Source: an uncultured Clostridia bacterium
Lineage (GTDB): Bacteria; Bacillota; Clostridia; Christensenellales; Borkfalkiaceae
Length of the DNA stretch: 64,000 nt
Assembly: GCA_949282385.1 (NCBI GenBank)
Contig: CASDOP010000010.1
Location: 1 to 64,000 of the forward strand
Direction of reading: 5' to 3'
Part shown: positions 10,660-20,823 of the stretch, in pieces
Layout: every line of letters starts with the position of its first letter
Position numbering within the stretch: position 1 is the stretch's first letter
Translations under genes and position numbers: made by a program
The notes under the pieces: generated by a model
Seen by the model: only the letters and a program-made list of their open reading frames with translations
Databases searched by the model: none
Told to the model about the DNA's origin: nothing

Positions 10660-13308
10660 ATGGCAAAAAAGTATTGCTATCTCTTCAGCGAAGGCAACGC
10701 AGGCATGAGGGAGCTTCTCGGCGGCAAGGGCGCAAACCTTGCGGAAATGACTAAAATAGGTCTTCCCGTTCCTCAGGGCTTTACAATCTCTACGGAAGCC
10801 TGCACGCAGTACTATGAAGACGGCAGAGTAATCAATGCAGATATTCAGAAAGAAATAATGGATTACATCGACAAGATGGAAAATATCTGCGGCAAGAAGT
10901 TCGGCGACAAGGAAAATCCCCTGCTCGTTTCCGTTCGTTCGGGCGCACGCGCATCCATGCCCGGCATGATGGATACCATTTTAAATCTCGGTCTCAACGA
11001 AGACGTGGTCGAATCGCTCGCAAAGCGTTCGGGCAATCCCCGTTGGGCATGGGACTGCTACAGAAGATTTATTCAGATGTTCTCCGACGTCGTTATGGAA
11101 GTCGGCAAGAAATATTTTGAAAAACTCATCGACAAGATGAAGGAAGAAAAGGGCGTTGAGTATGACGTGGAACTCACCGCGGACGACCTTAAAACGCTTG
11201 CAAACCAGTTCAAGGCAGAATACAAAGCTCAGATAGGCAGGGATTTCCCCTCCGACCCCAAGGAACAGCTCTTTGAAGCCGTCAAAGCCGTATTCCGCAG
11301 CTGGGACAACCCCCGCGCAAACATTTACCGCATGGACCACGACATTCCCTACTCGTGGGGTACTGCAGTCAACGTTCAGATGATGGCGTTCGGCAATATG
11401 GGCGACGATTGCGGCACGGGCGTTGCGTTCACGCGTAACCCCGCTACGGGCGAAAAAGGACTTATGGGCGAATTCCTCATGAATGCCCAGGGCGAAGACG
11501 TCGTTGCAGGCGTGCGCACGCCTATGCCTATTTCCGAAATGGCTAAGGTTCAGCCCGAAGTGTACAACCAGTTCCTCAAAGTCTGCGATATTCTCGAAGA
11601 GCATTACCGCGACATGCAGGATATGGAATTTACCATAGAAAAAGGCAAACTTTATATGCTCCAGACGCGCAACGGCAAGCGCACCGCCGCCGCTGCGATA
11701 AAGATAGCTTGCGACCTCATCGACGAGGGCATGATTACCGAACAGCAGGCGCTCATGCAGATAGACGCAAAGTCGCTCGACATGCTCCTTCATCCCCAGT
11801 TCGACGCAAAGGCTTTGAAGGAAGCCGATAAGAACAATATCGTCGGCAAGGGTATAGCCGCTTCCCCCGGCGCCGCTGCGGGCGAAATCGTGTTCACCGC
11901 AGAAGACGCGGTCGAAAAGGGCAAGAAGGGCAAGAAGGTCGTTCTCGTCCGCCTCGAAACCTCTCCCGAGGATATCGAGGGCATGAAGTACGCGCAGGGC
12001 ATTCTTACCGTGCGCGGCGGTCAGACCTCTCACGCGGCAGTCGTTGCCCGCGGCATGGGAACGTGCTGCGTATCGGGCTGCGGCGACATTAAGATGGATG
12101 AAGAGAACAAGTGCTTCACCCTCGCAGGCAAAGTTTTCAAAGAGGGCGACAGCCTCTCGCTCGACGGCTCTACGGGTAATATTTACGATTGCCTCATCGC
12201 AACCGTTCCCGCAGACCCCAACTCCGGTTACTTCGGCAGAATTATGGAGCTTGCCGATAAATATAAGGCTCTCGGCGTAAGAACTAACGCAGATACCCCC
12301 AAGGACGCAAAGCAGGCAGCCGCATTCGGTGCGCAGGGCATCGGTCTTTGCCGTACCGAGCATATGTTCTTCGATACCGACAGAATAGGCGCTTTCCGCG
12401 AAATGATCTGCTCGGATACCAAGGCAGAGCGCGAAGCGGCGCTTGAAAAGATAGAGCCTATGCAGCAGGCAGACTTCGAAGGACTTATGGAAGCCCTGGA
12501 AGGACAGCCCGTAACCATTCGTTTCCTCGATCCCCCTCTTCATGAGTTCGTGCCCACCGAAGAGGCAGACATAAAGGCTCTCGCAAAGGCGCAGGGCAAG
12601 ACGGTTGCGCAGATTAAGCAGATTATCTCTGACCTTCACGAGTTCAACCCCATGATGGGACACCGCGGATGCCGCCTTACGGTAACCTATCCCGAAATCG
12701 CCGTCATGCAGACCAAAGCTGTCATAAAGGCAGCCATTGCCGTTCAGAAGCGTCATCCCGACTGGAAAGTCGTTCCCGAAATCATGATACCTTTAGTAGG
12801 CGAAGTTAAGGAATTCGACTTTGTCAAGAAGACCGTCGTAGAAACGGCGGATAAGGTCATTGCCGAAGCGGGCGTACAGCTCAGATACGAAGTCGGCACC
12901 ATGATAGAAATTCCCCGTGCCGCTCTCACGGCAGATGAAATCGCAAAGCATGCAGATTTCTTCTGCTTCGGCACAAACGATTTGACGCAGATGACCTTCG
13001 GCTTCTCGCGCGACGACGCAGGCAAATTCCTGCCTTCGTACTATGCAAACAAGATTTACGAGTTCGACCCGTTCGCAAAGCTCGACACGATCGGCGTAGG
13101 CAAGCTGATGGATATGGCAGTCAAGCTCGGCAAGGGCGCAAACTTCTCGCTTCACTGCGGTATATGCGGCGAACACGGCGGCGATCCTTCGTCCATCGAG
13201 TTCTGCCATGCAATCGGTCTGGACTATGTTTCCTGCTCGCCCTACCGTGTACCCATTGCCCGCCTTGCAGCTGCCCAGGCCAACATTCGTTCGCCACGCA
13301 ATAAATAA
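10660..13308 (+). CDS. ppdK: Pyruvate phosphate dikinase
   Basis: An 882-residue enzyme interconverting pyruvate, ATP and phosphate with PEP, AMP and PPi. The N-terminal ATP-grasp domain runs to about 340. The swivelling domain carries phospho-histidine H458 in GGQTSHAAV. The C-terminal TIM barrel binds PEP/pyruvate and has the catalytic C836 in GICGEHGG. Length matches the family. The start at 10660 follows AAGGAGG; an upstream frame extension has no ribosome site. The last codons (IRSPRNK) are not the native ones: the integrated element supplies them, while the original end (IKNPRK) lies at 20803-20823. The enzyme is expected to remain complete. Confidence 0.96.
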   Translation: MAKKYCYLFSEGNAGMRELLGGKGANLAEMTKIGLPVPQGFTISTEACTQYYEDGRVINADIQKEIMDYIDKMENICGKKFGDKENPLLVSVRSGARASMPGMMDTILNLGLNEDVVESLAKRSGNPRWAWDCYRRFIQMFSDVVMEVGKKYFEKLIDKMKEEKGVEYDVELTADDLKTLANQFKAEYKAQIGRDFPSDPKEQLFEAVKAVFRSWDNPRANIYRMDHDIPYSWGTAVNVQMMAFGNMGDDCGTGVAFTRNPATGEKGLMGEFLMNAQGEDVVAGVRTPMPISEMAKVQPEVYNQFLKVCDILEEHYRDMQDMEFTIEKGKLYMLQTRNGKRTAAAAIKIACDLIDEGMITEQQALMQIDAKSLDMLLHPQFDAKALKEADKNNIVGKGIAASPGAAAGEIVFTAEDAVEKGKKGKKVVLVRLETSPEDIEGMKYAQGILTVRGGQTSHAAVVARGMGTCCVSGCGDIKMDEENKCFTLAGKVFKEGDSLSLDGSTGNIYDCLIATVPADPNSGYFGRIMELADKYKALGVRTNADTPKDAKQAAAFGAQGIGLCRTEHMFFDTDRIGAFREMICSDTKAEREAALEKIEPMQQADFEGLMEALEGQPVTIRFLDPPLHEFVPTEEADIKALAKAQGKTVAQIKQIISDLHEFNPMMGHRGCRLTVTYPEIAVMQTKAVIKAAIAVQKRHPDWKVVPEIMIPLVGEVKEFDFVKKTVVETADKVIAEAGVQLRYEVGTMIEIPRAALTADEIAKHADFFCFGTNDLTQMTFGFSRDDAGKFLPSYYANKIYEFDPFAKLDTIGVGKLMDMAVKLGKGANFSLHCGICGEHGGDPSSIEFCHAIGLDYVSCSPYRVPIARLAAAQANIRSPRNK
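13276..13287 (+). repeat. Left attachment site (attL) in ppdK
   Basis: CAGGCCAACATT, coding for QANI of PpdK. It matches the right copy in 11 of 12 bases. Sequence to the left is ppdK; sequence to the right belongs to the element. Confidence 0.75.
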
Positions 13309-13594: not shown

Positions 13595-15316
13595 ATGAAA
13601 ATTTTTATTGAAAACAAGCAGGAGAGGCGACGCAGAACGGTTGCGTTTTACGGAAGAGTATCCACCGAGCATGAAGAGCAAGTCAATGCTCTCAAAAATC
13701 AGATGCAGTGGTACGACGAGCTTGCCCGCTCCTTTCCGGAATGGGATATAATTGAGAGGTATGTGGATGAAGGCATTACCGGTACGCAGGCAAATAAACG
13801 ACCTGAGTTTATGCGGATGATAGCCGATGCCGTTGCCGGCAAATTTGATTTGATAGTTACCCGCGAAGTATCGCGTTTTGCAAGAAACACAATCGATTGC
13901 CTTGATATGACAAGGCGGTTGAAGAATTATAATGTTGAAGTATTTTTTGTACAGGAGGGGATTTGGACTATGGACAATGAAGGGGAAATGAATCTTACAA
14001 TTAGAGCGATGGTCGCGCAAGAAGAGAGCAGAAAAATGTCGGAACGCGTGAAGGCGGGGCAGGAAATCAGTCGTGCCAACGGTGTGCTATACGGCAACGG
14101 CAATGTATTGGGCTATGACAGGGTAGGCAGTACATATGTGATCAATGAAGATCAAGCAGAAACAGTGCGAATGATTTACAATTTATATGAGTCCGGGCTG
14201 GGTATGCAGGCTATCCGCGATGAGTTGATACGTGCAGGGCGCAAGTGTGCCAGCGGTACGGTAGACTGGGATGTTACCAAAATTCAGCGTTGCCTTAAGA
14301 ACACCATTTACAAGGGCGTGATGGGATATAAAAAGTCATACAGGAACAACTACCTTGACCAGAAGACGATTATCAATCACGACGAAAGTACCTATATGTA
14401 TGTTCAGGGGAATTTTGAACCGATAATTTCGGAAGAACAGTGGGAGCATTGCCGTCAGATACGTGAAAGTCGGACGCGGGTGCGCGTGGTCGAAAAGGAC
14501 GGCAAGTTGGTTTCTGAAAAGAAGGGTGTCAACCAGGTACAGGATGTCTGGACTCGTAAGCTGCGCTGCGCATGCGGCTCTTCCATGAGGAGGAATAAAT
14601 GGCGTGTAAGAAAGGACGGAACCAGACCAGTCGGGTACAGGTGCTACAGCCAACTCAATAAAGGAGCGAATAAGATTTTGGAAGGAAGTGTGGGCTATTG
14701 CAATATCCATTCGGTATGTGGCTGGAAATTGGAGCTGATGGCGGAAATGATTTTCAAAAAAATTTTGAAGGCTGAAAAGCTTTTCGGTATGGCGGTAAAA
14801 GGGTTTATGAAAAGCAGCAAAATGAGCGCGGACGAAGCGAAGCATATGAGAATACGCTATCAGGCTGAAGTCAAGGCAATATCGGGTAAGATAAGCCGGC
14901 TTATCGAAATGCGCATCAATGGCGAACTGAATAAAGAAGAGTATCTCGATATGCGTAAAAAGTTTGAGGAAGAAAAACAACAGGCAGAGCAGTATTTACT
15001 TGAGTATGATAAGCAATCGTCGCCGAAAGCCTGTCCGATAACTGATGCGGAAGCAAAAGAAAGATTACGCGCAATGATAAAAGCCGGTGGCGAGTTTGTA
15101 GAAGAGCTTGTCGGTATATTTGTCTCCAAAATACGGGTTGTCAATGAAACGCAATGCGAATGGTACTTGTCTTTTGACAGTAAAGATGATATAATGGAAG
15201 AAAATAGTTTTAATTTAGCAGTTAAGTATAAAGATGCCTTAGCTTTCCGCAAAAAGCGCAAAGAACTTCTCCGCCAAAACCAGTGGAGCGATTTGAAAGT
15301 GGAAGTGTATTATTGA
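13595..15316 (+). CDS. Large serine recombinase (integrase)
   Basis: A 573-residue large serine recombinase. The N-terminal resolvase domain has the catalytic serine S23 in YGRVSTEHEEQ and the conserved VTREVSRFARN block. A recombinase domain follows (about 170-290), then a zinc ribbon with CACGSS as its first cysteine pair, and a long charged coiled coil near 420-490. The start follows AAAGGAGG at 13580; a longer frame lacks a ribosome site. Such enzymes integrate elements at a short attB core without host factors. Placed next to the left att site, it is the likely integrase of the element. A directionality factor is not evident, unless it is the small ORF at 20268. Confidence 0.93.
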   Translation: MKIFIENKQERRRRTVAFYGRVSTEHEEQVNALKNQMQWYDELARSFPEWDIIERYVDEGITGTQANKRPEFMRMIADAVAGKFDLIVTREVSRFARNTIDCLDMTRRLKNYNVEVFFVQEGIWTMDNEGEMNLTIRAMVAQEESRKMSERVKAGQEISRANGVLYGNGNVLGYDRVGSTYVINEDQAETVRMIYNLYESGLGMQAIRDELIRAGRKCASGTVDWDVTKIQRCLKNTIYKGVMGYKKSYRNNYLDQKTIINHDESTYMYVQGNFEPIISEEQWEHCRQIRESRTRVRVVEKDGKLVSEKKGVNQVQDVWTRKLRCACGSSMRRNKWRVRKDGTRPVGYRCYSQLNKGANKILEGSVGYCNIHSVCGWKLELMAEMIFKKILKAEKLFGMAVKGFMKSSKMSADEAKHMRIRYQAEVKAISGKISRLIEMRINGELNKEEYLDMRKKFEEEKQQAEQYLLEYDKQSSPKACPITDAEAKERLRAMIKAGGEFVEELVGIFVSKIRVVNETQCEWYLSFDSKDDIMEENSFNLAVKYKDALAFRKKRKELLRQNQWSDLKVEVYY

Positions 15317-15340: not shown

Positions 15341-18300
15341 ATGCCAAGGATAACAGAAGAACTGCTTAACAGGCATTTGAAGACTCATTGTGAAAGAGCT
15401 GTTGAGGACAGAGAAGCCATTTCTGTTTTAGTAAATTTTTTGCGTTCAGGCGGGAAGATTAACACTAATTTTGCATGCAATGACAAATGGCCCAATATTG
15501 ATGGAACATTTGAGTTTGTTTCTAATCCCGATGCTTCAAGGCAGCCTGAGCAGAATTTTGTAGTTCAGATAAAAGGGACGCGTGATAATTATACAGAGAA
15601 AGACGGAATAGTAAATTTCCGTCTGCAAAGTCTGGCTTTCCCCGTCTATTTGCTAAAGGAAGTTACGGCAGATCCAGGAATACTTTTTATCGTTTTGCAT
15701 CCTTCAGATCGAGATAAAGAAAGGGTGTTTTGGAAGTATATGTCGGTGGAATTTCTCTCTTCTATTGACTATAGCCACGATAGTTGCGTGATTTCTTTTA
15801 CAAAAGAGGAAGAAATTAAAAATACAAATGAAAGTATTAACAAATTTTGTAAGCAACTTGAGGAAATAAGTAAATTGCATTCTTTTGTTAAGAAGTTGGA
15901 AGATAGGGAGTATTCTGAATCAGATATTATAAAAATTGTCGAAAGATGCAATGATGAAATAACTGAGAGCATAGAAAGACTTGATATTTACAACGATACT
16001 CGAGATGATGTTTCAAGAAGAATCATATCCAGGCTCGAAGAACTTTGTGTGTCGGCACTTTTACTTAATGCTACAAAAATAGGTGAGAAATCAGTAGGAC
16101 TGCCGCTGGCTTTTGAGTTGTCTTTATTAGATAGAAAGACCAAGTATCTCAGCAGCTTTTTGCGTATGCTGATATATATTGGACATCGTATACCGGATGA
16201 TGGACAGTCTGAAAGATTAATGCTAAAGTATTACGACTTTATGTGGCAAATTCGTGATGACTTTAGGCGAAATGGAATAAAAATTCTTTCTAATTTAGAG
16301 AAATTCCCTATAGAGATAAATCAGGTAGATAAATCTTATTACGAAATTGTTGCGCGGGCTATAGAAAGGCATACGAATGACAGAAGTTATTTAAGAAAAT
16401 CAAGATACTATATTGAAAAGCAGACGCCATTCTACGTCAATGGAAAACGGTATTATGAGACGACATTGCAATTAGCCGGTATATATGCTACAAAATTTAA
16501 TCGTATCACAGTATACGCAAAAGAATTTATTCCTTCAAGCTATTCGATTCAGATAGGCTATGATGAATTGGATATTGTGCTCTGGGATGTAAATGCTCAA
16601 ATTAAATTAATTACTAGCTGGAAAGTATCAATTGAACCTGCTTGCCTTAACAAATTGGCTAAAATTTTGATGATTCCTGCTAGGGTTTCCTCAAATTATG
16701 GTGAATACGATGCATTAATGGCGTATCTTACTAAAACAGGAATAAATCTACTGGATTTTATTGATTTTGAGGAAATAGATTTTAATCATGAAATTGATTT
16801 AATTTATGAAAATTCAAATACGAGTAACTTTAAAAAGGTATTGCATAAATTAAGGAATGATTTTAAATCAAATTCCAATGCAATGGGAGGCAATACTATA
16901 CGTTATTTGCTTATAGGAATGAGGGAAGAATCAATTGAAGCGGTTATGCCTGATAATGATGCTTGTTTGCGAAACAGCAAGGCATATTTAAGCAGTAAGT
17001 GTTTTCCCTTTGAAAAGAACCCATTTATTTCTAATTTTGCAGGTAGTAAAACAAGCAAATATACTATAGCCAGGGATGTTGTTCGAGCGGTCGGATATGA
17101 TAAAATTTCAAAAGCGCGGCCTTATTTGACTATAAAGAAATTAATTGGAGAAACTGGAGAAATCTATTTTGATGATAGTGTTATAGAAGAAACACCAAAG
17201 AGTATTGATAGCTTTAATCAAAGTTTGGATTATTGGGAAAAAAGCCAGGGCTTTTCCATTGAGCATAAGAATAAGTTAGTATATATTGATTCATTTGAAA
17301 GGGATACTATCTCTATAATGAAGTATCTTATGATGCTTTCAGTATCCAGTAATAAGGGACAGGAGGCAATCAATAAGAAATATATCAAGGAGCATGAAGG
17401 CCAACTTACCGATACGTTAAAGAAAAAAGCCTTAATGAATGTGTTCGTATCTTCCAGAGTTATGCTTATATATGGCGCTGCTGGCACGGGTAAAACAACG
17501 CTTATAAATCATATCTCTAACCTGATGAGAAATCGGAAAAAACTTTTTTTAACAAAGACTCATGCGGCTCTGCAAAATTTACAGAGGGCAATAGAAAGTC
17601 CGGGTGCAGATTCTGATTTCGTGAGCATAGATAGCTTTACTAGAAAAATACAATTGCAAGATTATGATGTGATTTTTGTTGATGAGTGTAGTACTATAGA
17701 TAATCGCACCATGTCTAAATTTTTTGAAAAGATTGATCCGGATACATTTGTCGTATTGGTGGGAGATACATATCAGCTGGAAGCAATTGATTTTGGGAAC
17801 TGGTTTTCTTATGCAAAAGAGTTGATGCCAGATAATGCAAAAATTGAATTGCTAAATACATGGAGAACTAAACAGCCGAACCTAATAAGTCTTTGGAACG
17901 AGGTGCGCAAAAGAGGTATATTGGTTCGTGAGAAACTTGCAATGGATGGACCTTTTTCTGCGGAAATAGGAAATATAGTTCTTCAAAATTTTTCCGATGA
18001 CGAGGATGAGGTTGTATTGTGTCTGAATTATGATGGTAAATTTGGTTTGAATAACATCAATGCGCTTTTTCAAGCAAATAACTGTAACGTAGCATATACC
18101 TGGCAAGAATGGACTTATAAAGTTGGTGATCATATCCTTTTTACTGAACCGAAGAAAAGGTTTCAGACTGTTTTTTACAATAACTTGAAAGGTAAAATAG
18201 TTGGTATTGAAAAGGATGCGTCAAGCATTACATTTACAATAGATATTGACAGGTTGCTTTCTGAAAGTGATTGTGCAGATGAAGTTGAATACATTGATAC

Positions 18301-18652
18301 GTTTGATGATGCAACTCGTGTTAGATTCACAGTATATGAAGATGATGGCGGTGGTACTGATGAAGAACGTGCGGAGTCTAGAATAAAGTCGGTCGTGCCA
18401 TTTCATTTAGCTTATGCCGTTTCAATTCACAAGGCCCAAGGATTGGAATATAATTCTATTAAGATAATTATACCGGACAGCACTGCGGAAAAAATAACGC
18501 ATGGGATTTTTTATACGGCAATTACAAGGGCAAAAGAGAATTTGAAAATATATTGGAGTCCCGAAACAATGGATTTGATTTTGAAAAATATCATGGAGGA
18601 GCAGAAAGAAAAGAAGAGTTTAGAAATTATAAGAGAAAAACTTTTTAATTAA
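15341..18652 (+). CDS. DUF4365 nuclease / SF1 helicase fusion, candidate defence protein
   Basis: A 1,103-residue protein. The N-terminal region (about 10-160) resembles DUF4365, a PD-(D/E)XK nuclease-like fold, with the acidic WPNIDGTFEF segment and QIKGT as the catalytic Q-x-K. A middle region of about 550 residues has no family I recognise. The C-terminal third is an SF1 helicase: Walker A GAAGTGKTT near 711, Walker B FVDECS, VGDTYQLEAI, and a UvrD_C-type end with HKAQGLEYNSI and FYTAITRAKENLK. A start at 15341 is preceded by AAAGGTG. It lies 24 bases after the integrase gene and may be co-transcribed with it. The architecture recalls single-protein nuclease-helicase immunity enzymes such as Nhi, but homology cannot be tested here. 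Cargo status and architecture suggest anti-phage function (inference). Confidence 0.8.
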   Translation: MPRITEELLNRHLKTHCERAVEDREAISVLVNFLRSGGKINTNFACNDKWPNIDGTFEFVSNPDASRQPEQNFVVQIKGTRDNYTEKDGIVNFRLQSLAFPVYLLKEVTADPGILFIVLHPSDRDKERVFWKYMSVEFLSSIDYSHDSCVISFTKEEEIKNTNESINKFCKQLEEISKLHSFVKKLEDREYSESDIIKIVERCNDEITESIERLDIYNDTRDDVSRRIISRLEELCVSALLLNATKIGEKSVGLPLAFELSLLDRKTKYLSSFLRMLIYIGHRIPDDGQSERLMLKYYDFMWQIRDDFRRNGIKILSNLEKFPIEINQVDKSYYEIVARAIERHTNDRSYLRKSRYYIEKQTPFYVNGKRYYETTLQLAGIYATKFNRITVYAKEFIPSSYSIQIGYDELDIVLWDVNAQIKLITSWKVSIEPACLNKLAKILMIPARVSSNYGEYDALMAYLTKTGINLLDFIDFEEIDFNHEIDLIYENSNTSNFKKVLHKLRNDFKSNSNAMGGNTIRYLLIGMREESIEAVMPDNDACLRNSKAYLSSKCFPFEKNPFISNFAGSKTSKYTIARDVVRAVGYDKISKARPYLTIKKLIGETGEIYFDDSVIEETPKSIDSFNQSLDYWEKSQGFSIEHKNKLVYIDSFERDTISIMKYLMMLSVSSNKGQEAINKKYIKEHEGQLTDTLKKKALMNVFVSSRVMLIYGAAGTGKTTLINHISNLMRNRKKLFLTKTHAALQNLQRAIESPGADSDFVSIDSFTRKIQLQDYDVIFVDECSTIDNRTMSKFFEKIDPDTFVVLVGDTYQLEAIDFGNWFSYAKELMPDNAKIELLNTWRTKQPNLISLWNEVRKRGILVREKLAMDGPFSAEIGNIVLQNFSDDEDEVVLCLNYDGKFGLNNINALFQANNCNVAYTWQEWTYKVGDHILFTEPKKRFQTVFYNNLKGKIVGIEKDASSITFTIDIDRLLSESDCADEVEYIDTFDDATRVRFTVYEDDGGGTDEERAESRIKSVVPFHLAYAVSIHKAQGLEYNSIKIIIPDSTAEKITHGIFYTAITRAKENLKIYWSPETMDLILKNIMEEQKEKKSLEIIREKLFN

Positions 18653-19343
18653 ATTAATGATTTAGGTTGTTGACGAGATACTATTAGCACGTCGTTCTAT
18701 ATATACATGGGAAACAAAATTATCTCGTTATCATGTGTTCGGTGAAAGATAATCAACTAAATGATTATCAAAATTTTTATTGGGCTTTTTGGAGATATGA
18801 TTGCGAACTGTTTGAGATGAGAAAACTTCCATCTGGTATGTTATCGACGTTGTTGAAATTTGGCTAAAAGCAAGGACCAAGGTTGTATTGGGTGTCTATA
18901 AGATACAGCAATTCTTCAGTTGATTGCAATCTGTAAACAACTTAAATTGACCGCGAAAGGCGGGAAAATTAAATAACTGTATTGTGGACGAGGATGGCGT
19001 AAATGCCGTAATTTCCATAATAATAGCAAAAAGACGCTTGTGCATGATTTTGATAAGTGTACTAAAGGGATTGGAACCTCAATCGATAATAAGAGCAATC
19101 TAGAGTGGATTGAGAAAGTATTCTTAAAAAAATATAAAATCTCTTTTTTGCCTTAAGTTTTAAAATGATGTGGGCGTGGTATAATTATAATAGGGAAATA
19201 TTATGGCGTTGGGATTGTTACAGCGAAAAAATATGTAAGAGTAGGGAAAATTTATTATGAAATCTTGCATTGTTTACAATTATGTGCTACAATAATTATG
19301 ACATACACGGATGAGTTGATAACAGGCACTAAGGAGACTTGCA
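18653..19343 (+). other. AT-rich gap with broken or tiny reading frames
   Basis: No gene with start and ribosome site is seen in these 690 bases. The forward strand has several short frames with protein-like composition: 18733-18867 (44 residues, from MCSVKDNQLN to LLKFG, no ribosome site) and an open frame from about 18979 to 19156 containing CGRGWRKCRNFHNN. They are out of frame with each other and may be remains of one or two decayed genes. A promoter for the kinase downstream probably lies near 19180-19320. Confidence 0.35.
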
Positions 19344-20255
19344 ATGACTGGGATTTCAAGACCTCTCTTTGATTTTAAACAGATTCATCCTTTCCTTATA
19401 GAGACATTACAGATGGATACGTTTCTTATGGGGGAAGGATTGTCCGCTGAAGATATTAAAGTGAGGATTTCAGAATATGAAATGATTATTAAAGAGGCAA
19501 ATACTGATTTGTATAAGGTTTTAAAATATAATACTTACGATTGTAAAAAATATAGAATTAATTTTAAAACAGATAGACAAAGAGAGGAATTGCGCAATAA
19601 CATAAAAAAACAATTAATACAATTTATAAGACCCGATGACGATGATGACATATCTTATAATGTAGGGGGCATGCTTCCGAAGTCTGGTTATGTATCGGAG
19701 AATAGGGAAGTTTATATAGTAATAGGACTGCCGGCATCTGGGAAGTCTCATATTGCTGCATTAATAAGTGATGCAACCAATTCAAAATTAATTGATTCTG
19801 ATTTTGTTAAACGTAAATTTCCAGAATTTGTTAAAGTTAATGGGGCATCTTTAGTGCATAAAGAATCAAAAATGATAGCTTCTGAGATTCGTCAGGAAGC
19901 TATAGATAAAGGTGAGAATATAGTTATTCCTATAATTGGAGATGATTTTAATGAACTTGTTGAATTAATAAAAGCATTTAAGACTAGAAGATATAAACCT
20001 TTTGTTATATTAGTAGAATTAGATCGAATTAAAGCTGCTCAACGTGCATTGTTGCGGTTTGCAAAAACAAAACGGTATATACCGTTAAACAATATTGTTG
20101 ATGGATACGCGCAAAATCCAGCGCTTACATATTATAAATTAAGAGAATTCTATCCAAAAGAAAGATGTATGTTGATAGATACTGATGTTGATTTTGCTAT
20201 TCGATATAAAAAGGTTTCATATCACAATTGTAAAGAACTATATGAGATGATTTAA
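19344..20255 (+). CDS. Zeta-toxin-like P-loop kinase
   Basis: A 303-residue protein with a zeta-toxin domain in its C-terminal part: Walker A GLPASGKS (G128-S135), then DSDFVKRKFPEF with the likely catalytic aspartate, and GASLVHKESKMIASEIRQEA, which matches the substrate-binding helix of zeta toxins. Zeta toxins phosphorylate UDP-N-acetylglucosamine and block wall synthesis; related members have other substrates. The N-terminal 125 residues, charged and including a DDDDD run, are an extra domain I do not recognise. AAGGAGA precedes the start. There is no epsilon-like antitoxin upstream; a 59-residue ORF follows 12 bases downstream. The gene is very AT-rich, as expected of transferred DNA. 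Confidence 0.75.
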   Translation: MTGISRPLFDFKQIHPFLIETLQMDTFLMGEGLSAEDIKVRISEYEMIIKEANTDLYKVLKYNTYDCKKYRINFKTDRQREELRNNIKKQLIQFIRPDDDDDISYNVGGMLPKSGYVSENREVYIVIGLPASGKSHIAALISDATNSKLIDSDFVKRKFPEFVKVNGASLVHKESKMIASEIRQEAIDKGENIVIPIIGDDFNELVELIKAFKTRRYKPFVILVELDRIKAAQRALLRFAKTKRYIPLNNIVDGYAQNPALTYYKLREFYPKERCMLIDTDVDFAIRYKKVSYHNCKELYEMI

Positions 20256-20267
20256 GGAGAAAGTAAC

Positions 20268-20447
20268 ATGATAATAACAAATAAATCAAAAAAGAAATGT
20301 TCAGTTAATTTACAATATATTACGAAATGTAAAGTTGTATTAAATCATGAACCTTATGAATCTGCTAAAGATATAATAGCATCGGTTCAGAAAAAGCCTA
20401 ATATAAAGACTTCTCAACACTCGAAAAAATCAATTGCGGTTAGTTGA
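20268..20447 (+). CDS. Small basic protein, possible antitoxin
   Basis: A 59-residue ORF from ATG 20268 to TGA 20447, preceded by AAGGAGA at 20254-20260 with good spacing. It begins MIITNKSKKKCSVNLQYITK and is lysine-rich, with no recognised domain. It follows the zeta-like kinase by 12 bases, so the two are probably one operon. Antitoxin, recombination directionality factor and unrelated small protein are all possible; nothing in the sequence decides. Confidence 0.6.
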   Translation: MIITNKSKKKCSVNLQYITKCKVVLNHEPYESAKDIIASVQKKPNIKTSQHSKKSIAVS

Positions 20448-20793: not shown

Positions 20794-20823
20794 CAGGCTA
20801 ACATTAAGAACCCCAGAAAGTAA
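20794..20823 (+). pseudogene. ppdK: Displaced native 3' end of ppdK with attR
   Basis: Reads CAG GCT AAC ATT AAG AAC CCC AGA AAG TAA, which codes for QANIKNPRK and a stop. This matches the usual PpdK C-terminus and parallels QANIRSPRNK at 13276-13308. There is no similarity to ppdK upstream of this fragment. CAGGCTAACATT (20794-20805) is the right attachment site. It shows where the chromosome resumes after the element. Confidence 0.85.

Follow-up and report, generated by a model that had tools for sequence, protein, structure and literature searches.

The window, by which we mean the whole stretch of 64,000 nucleotides analysed here from an uncultured Clostridia bacterium, contains a long gene in which a nuclease-like N-terminus is joined to a helicase. 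This locus raises the question of whether the encoded protein (hereafter P0001) defends its host against phages and, if so, which part of it is new. The original prediction had placed the gene as the main cargo of a small integrase island devoid of transfer genes. The island held up as a 7.5-kb element between att-like repeats, integrated in the 3′ end of ppdK, and its features are the following:

13276 to 13287, no strand: attL core CAGGCCAACATT in the ppdK 3′ end, by comparison with congeners.
13595 to 15316, forward strand: large serine recombinase, likely starting at the ATG at 13595 after AAAGGAGGT (Resolvase, E 2.8e-31; Recombinase, E 2.2e-19; CcrB-like NCBIfam match).
15341 to 18652, forward strand: nuclease-helicase gene P0001, 1,103 aa, matching PDC-S53 over residues 197-1100 (E 3.2e-274).
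19344 to 20255, forward strand: second cargo gene, a zeta-toxin-like P-loop kinase of 303 aa (Pfam Zeta_toxin, E 1.4e-13).
20794 to 20805, no strand: attR core CAGGCTAACATT, followed by a native-type ppdK tail, AAGAACCCCAGAAAGTAA, which directly follows ppdK in congeners with a native-looking end.

In many congeners, ppdK ends in ..CAGGCTAACATCAAGAACCCCAGAAAGTAA or a close variant. The ppdK end of the window is altered beyond CAGGCCAACATT, and CAGGCTAACATT recurs with the native-type tail at 20794. The inserted 7.5 kb have a GC content of 35.5%, against 52.0% and 49.8% in the flanks. Related recombinases sit at the same ppdK site in genomes G015 and G034, so that the ppdK 3′ end appears to be an integration hot spot. 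Duplicated tails or other recombinase elements were also observed at this site in L024 (2038/2184), L085 (1876/1938), and L096 (1877/1939).

The element contains the recombinase, P0001, and the kinase. P0001 is thus cargo as proposed, but it is not the only one. The N-terminal 120 aa of the kinase received no assignment, and its gene is followed by a 59-aa ORF (20268-20447), possibly forming a toxin-antitoxin pair. The 690 bp between the two cargo genes (18653-19343) hold no convincing gene, only short broken-looking ORFs. Location on the same strand within one element would fit P0001 and the kinase being a single two-gene system. We regard this as very improbable, since some 690 bp separate them and no such kinase adjoins the nuclease-bearing relatives of P0001 in ORF listings read by eye.

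The P0001 reading frame is intact, with no internal stop codons. It starts with an ATG preceded by AAAGGTGAT, 24 bp after the stop codon of the recombinase gene. The predicted D-G...QIKGT motif is present as D54-G55 and Q76-I-K78-G-T, to which E18 can be added, and the complete SF1 helicase that had been claimed was borne out by all of the listed motifs: I (GAAGTGKT, residue 712, with Walker A lysine K718), II (DECS, 781), III (GDxYQ, 808), HKAQGLE (1030), and VI (TAITRAK, 1059). Together with structure prediction, these results divide the protein into four parts, all on the forward strand:

15341 to 15910, residues 1-190: DUF4365/DREN-type PD-(D/E)XK nuclease domain (DUF4365 match; E18, D54, Q76, K78).
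15914 to 16279, residues 192-313: HEPN-like helical domain, apparently non-catalytic (AF2 model; HepT 7bxo, Z 10.9; Rx4-6H not conserved).
16373 to 16633, residues ~345-431: OB/SSB-like fold, tentative (SSB and MCM OB folds, Z 6-7.3).
17081 to 18649, residues 581-1103: RecD2-like SF1B helicase (3gp8, Z 22.4, 439 residues aligned; TIGR01448, 121 bits).

The N-terminal domain matched DUF4365 (PF14280) and nothing else in all five fused proteins, i.e., P0001 and the relatives that share its nuclease, with a best E of 7.6e-6. The match of P0001 itself is weak (E 6e-4, 20.3 bits against the Pfam gathering cut-off of 24.3), which counts against our interpretation; we therefore term the domain DUF4365-type instead of filing it as a DUF4365 member. 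E18, D54, Q76, and K78 are invariant in the alignment of the five fused proteins. DUF4365 has been classified as a RecB-like PD-(D/E)XK nuclease of the Mrr subfamily (PMC6299218). In the DUF4365-type nuclease DREN of SPARDA, residues D41, Q60, and K62, i.e., the same D..QxK pattern of an acidic residue followed by QxK, are needed for activity (PMC12205087). Hence, the P0001 N-terminus is predicted to be a nuclease of this type, although it is joined to a helicase, whereas DREN is joined to an APAZ protein that works with Argonaute. Profile searches of the three large proteins of the element found no match to Argonaute or APAZ. The full-length AlphaFold (AF2) model of P0001 is of good quality only beyond about residue 190, and the low confidence of its N-terminus likewise weighs against us. 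PDB sequence searches with the N-terminal and middle profiles returned nothing meaningful, and neither P0001 nor the N-terminal profile picked up a relative in scans of viral contigs. A DUF4365-type N-terminal module was also observed on a different protein of 542 aa (L144, 6578-8206, forward strand; profile E 2.6e-16).

The kinship with DREN brings in the main alternative, in which P0001 is also a defence protein but its nuclease, like that of SPARDA, acts as a collateral (abortive) effector: the helicase core would only sense foreign DNA, the complex would oligomerise, and the DREN domains would degrade all DNA of the cell. DREN, the characterised nuclease of this type, does act collaterally once it has tetramerised on a filament (PMC12205087). 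Yet a nuclease fused covalently to a translocating motor is equally compatible with processive cutting, and we rate the collateral reading as rather unlikely.

The middle of P0001 had been described as 550 unrecognised residues. It is in fact about 390 residues long (190-580), because the RecD2-like helicase spans residues 581-1103 by structure comparison (RecD2 3gp8, Z 22.4, rmsd 5.9, 439 residues). Modelled separately with AF2, the region 192-583 reached a pLDDT of 79.9 and a pTM of 0.80. Its first 120 residues resemble HepT 7bxo (Z 10.9, rmsd 3.4, 114 residues), a likeness that could be due to chance at Z below 13 in helical bundles, and the top rows of the structure comparison were mostly HEPN entries. 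The model suggests that the middle contains a HEPN-like domain (~192-313), which would be catalytically dead, and an OB fold (~345-431). Both assignments are tentative, because, by the aligner's own warning, chance alone can produce such Z-scores for helical bundles, and Foldseek returned no significant match for either part. No Rx4-6H HEPN motif is conserved, as any such site is common to at most 5 of the 18 sequences. Among the fused proteins, the motif occurs only in P0001, at a site common to no other sequence. We thus rejected an HEPN RNase activity.

Although residues 581-1103 are modelled with the fold of RecD2, P0001 scores only 121.3 bits against TIGR01448 (over residues 595-1090), far under the equivalog cut-off of 500 bits. 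This score, along with the patchy presence described below, rules out a housekeeping RecD2. To our knowledge, RecD2 has neither a nuclease domain nor an HEPN-like domain. Nhi is a single protein that combines a nuclease with an SF1 helicase. P0001 has only this general plan in common with it, and its helicase is of the RecD2 type. We found no further evidence of kinship, and no Nhi-named model was among the PADLOC matches to P0001 at E up to 1, in a library for which the presence of an Nhi model was not established.

The PADLOC model PDC-S53 (PDLC05035), a candidate single-gene defence, aligned almost end to end (positions 5-893 of 900) to residues 197-1100 of P0001 at the E-value given above, 3.2e-274. 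Because the match spans these residues, the helicase and most of the supposedly unrecognised middle belong to one catalogued candidate defence family. The middle thus offers no ground for an undescribed type: it is a conserved part of PDC-S53, found also in core-only proteins without the nuclease, one of them encoded by a second copy in the genome of P0001. What is new in P0001 is the DUF4365-type N-terminal nuclease of about 190 aa, which is confined to one clade. The name PDC-S53 was absent from the papers found in our literature search, and we know of no experimentally validated member, both of which count against a defence function. The nuclease-fused form is likewise described in none of the papers that we found.

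Four fused relatives (L023, L024, L052, and L053) share 50-57% identity, and a further one (G089) is cut by a contig end. In the tree, the fused proteins form one fully supported clade (100/100) on a long branch, and this clade is a new branch within an existing catalogued candidate family. Core-only relatives were found in other Bacillota, on a Phocaeicola plasmid, on actinobacterial plasmids, and in phages and prophages. Presence is patchy, with 9 of the 391 genomes of the class and 5 of the 398 genomes of the phylum, both counts including the genome of P0001. The second copy in this genome (L046, contig C12, 7717-10443) directly follows a HipA/HipB-like pair. In another relative of 1,133 aa (L048, 3408-6809, reverse strand), the N-terminal core region is apparently doubled.

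The neighbourhoods of the relatives were typed by profile matches where cited and otherwise read from ORFs, as a listing that carries no statistical background. Most relatives with chromosomal context adjoin restriction systems (type I, McrBC, LlaJI, and type II). Some adjoin Septu or TIR genes, and others are carried by prophages and plasmids. Type I restriction genes adjoin the fused relatives L023 and L052, the latter along with Septu PtuAB, and the core relatives L047, L054, L154, and L157. McrBC components adjoin L055 and, judging by gene order, L056. A C5 methylase and an SpbK-like TIR protein adjoin L050 and L153, a C5 methylase adjoins L156, and LlaJI-type genes adjoin L158. P0001 itself does not stand in such a defence locus but alone with the kinase in the integrated element. 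Two fused relatives also count against a defence function: no defence neighbour is visible beside L053, and only a PIN-type pair and Ku/LigD beside L024, as read by eye.

Most prophage cores come after a partner gene whose product is LmuA-like in its N-terminal part. These partners have a conserved C-terminal tail in common (..FPYDAFIDDWDDGEY), while the N-terminal part of the L063 partner differs. Upstream partner genes with a conserved C-terminus and a variable N-terminus were observed in L061, L062, L064-L066, L068, L051, L044, L045, and L063, and L062 shows an apparent internal duplication. The occurrence of the core with or near genes of the cell-killing type, such as these partners and the SpbK-like TIR of L050 and L153, speaks for the collateral reading. 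Nevertheless, TIR is ruled out as an obligatory partner, since type I restriction-modification genes take that place in L154, whose core is nearly identical.

Carriage by plasmids and by prophages, where core copies lie near replication genes, counts against defence and, along with the RecD2-like fold, would fit a RecD2-like repair or recombination enzyme that helps mobile elements or phages to replicate or recombine. We consider this improbable. Besides falling far short of a housekeeping RecD2, the family clusters with restriction systems on chromosomes, and its prophage copies lie with their partner gene on the strand opposite to the adjoining replication genes, like added accessory cassettes.

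The core gene of L158 is followed, 22 bp downstream, by a separate DUF4365 gene (E 4.7e-16) which also has the QIKGT motif. In a direct profile comparison, the D..QIKGT stretch of this protein aligned with that of the fused N-termini, with weak statistics. The L158 core falls beside the fused clade (83/96), a placement under a long-branch warning that counts against our interpretation, and L158 is likely a sister locus of this clade. With nuclease and core split into two genes, L158 provides the strongest independent evidence linking the DUF4365 nuclease type to the PDC-S53 helicase core.

Based on these findings, we lean towards P0001 being a candidate single-protein anti-phage or anti-plasmid helicase-nuclease of a nuclease-fused PDC-S53 branch, encoded in the cargo of a serine-recombinase element. 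An anti-phage function is plausible, if putative, and fits the PDC-S53 match, the patchy distribution, and the location of relatives in prophages, on plasmids, and in restriction-modification, Septu, and McrBC loci. In the mechanism that we propose, the OB fold and the RecD2-like SF1B motor would engage foreign DNA where it exposes single strands (at forks, ends, and gaps), and the motor would translocate 5′-3′, as RecD2 does. The HEPN-like domain, with no conserved RNase motif, may serve assembly or dimerisation, and the DREN-type PD-(D/E)XK domain would cut DNA during unwinding. In this scheme, the action of P0001 on DNA, the link between its unwinding and its cutting, its trigger, and any effect on phages are all inferred. 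Both processive and collateral cutting predict a need for D54, K78, and the Walker A lysine K718.

More speculatively, and with considerable doubt, PDC-S53 could be a modular immune platform, in which a sensor-motor core (HEPN-like/OB/RecD2) is combined with killing modules that can be swapped: a DREN-type nuclease, fused to the core or encoded next to it, or the LmuA-like prophage partners. With the DREN-type nuclease as the module of one lineage, the P0001 element would therefore carry the one-protein version of this platform.

These findings have implications for a family catalogued only as a candidate. The fused branch points out residues to mutate in PDC-S53, and P0001, as the self-contained single-gene cargo of an element, is easily cloned and tested. 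Together with the neighbouring nuclease gene of L158, the fused branch hints that the role of PDC-S53 may lie in attacking or sensing DNA.
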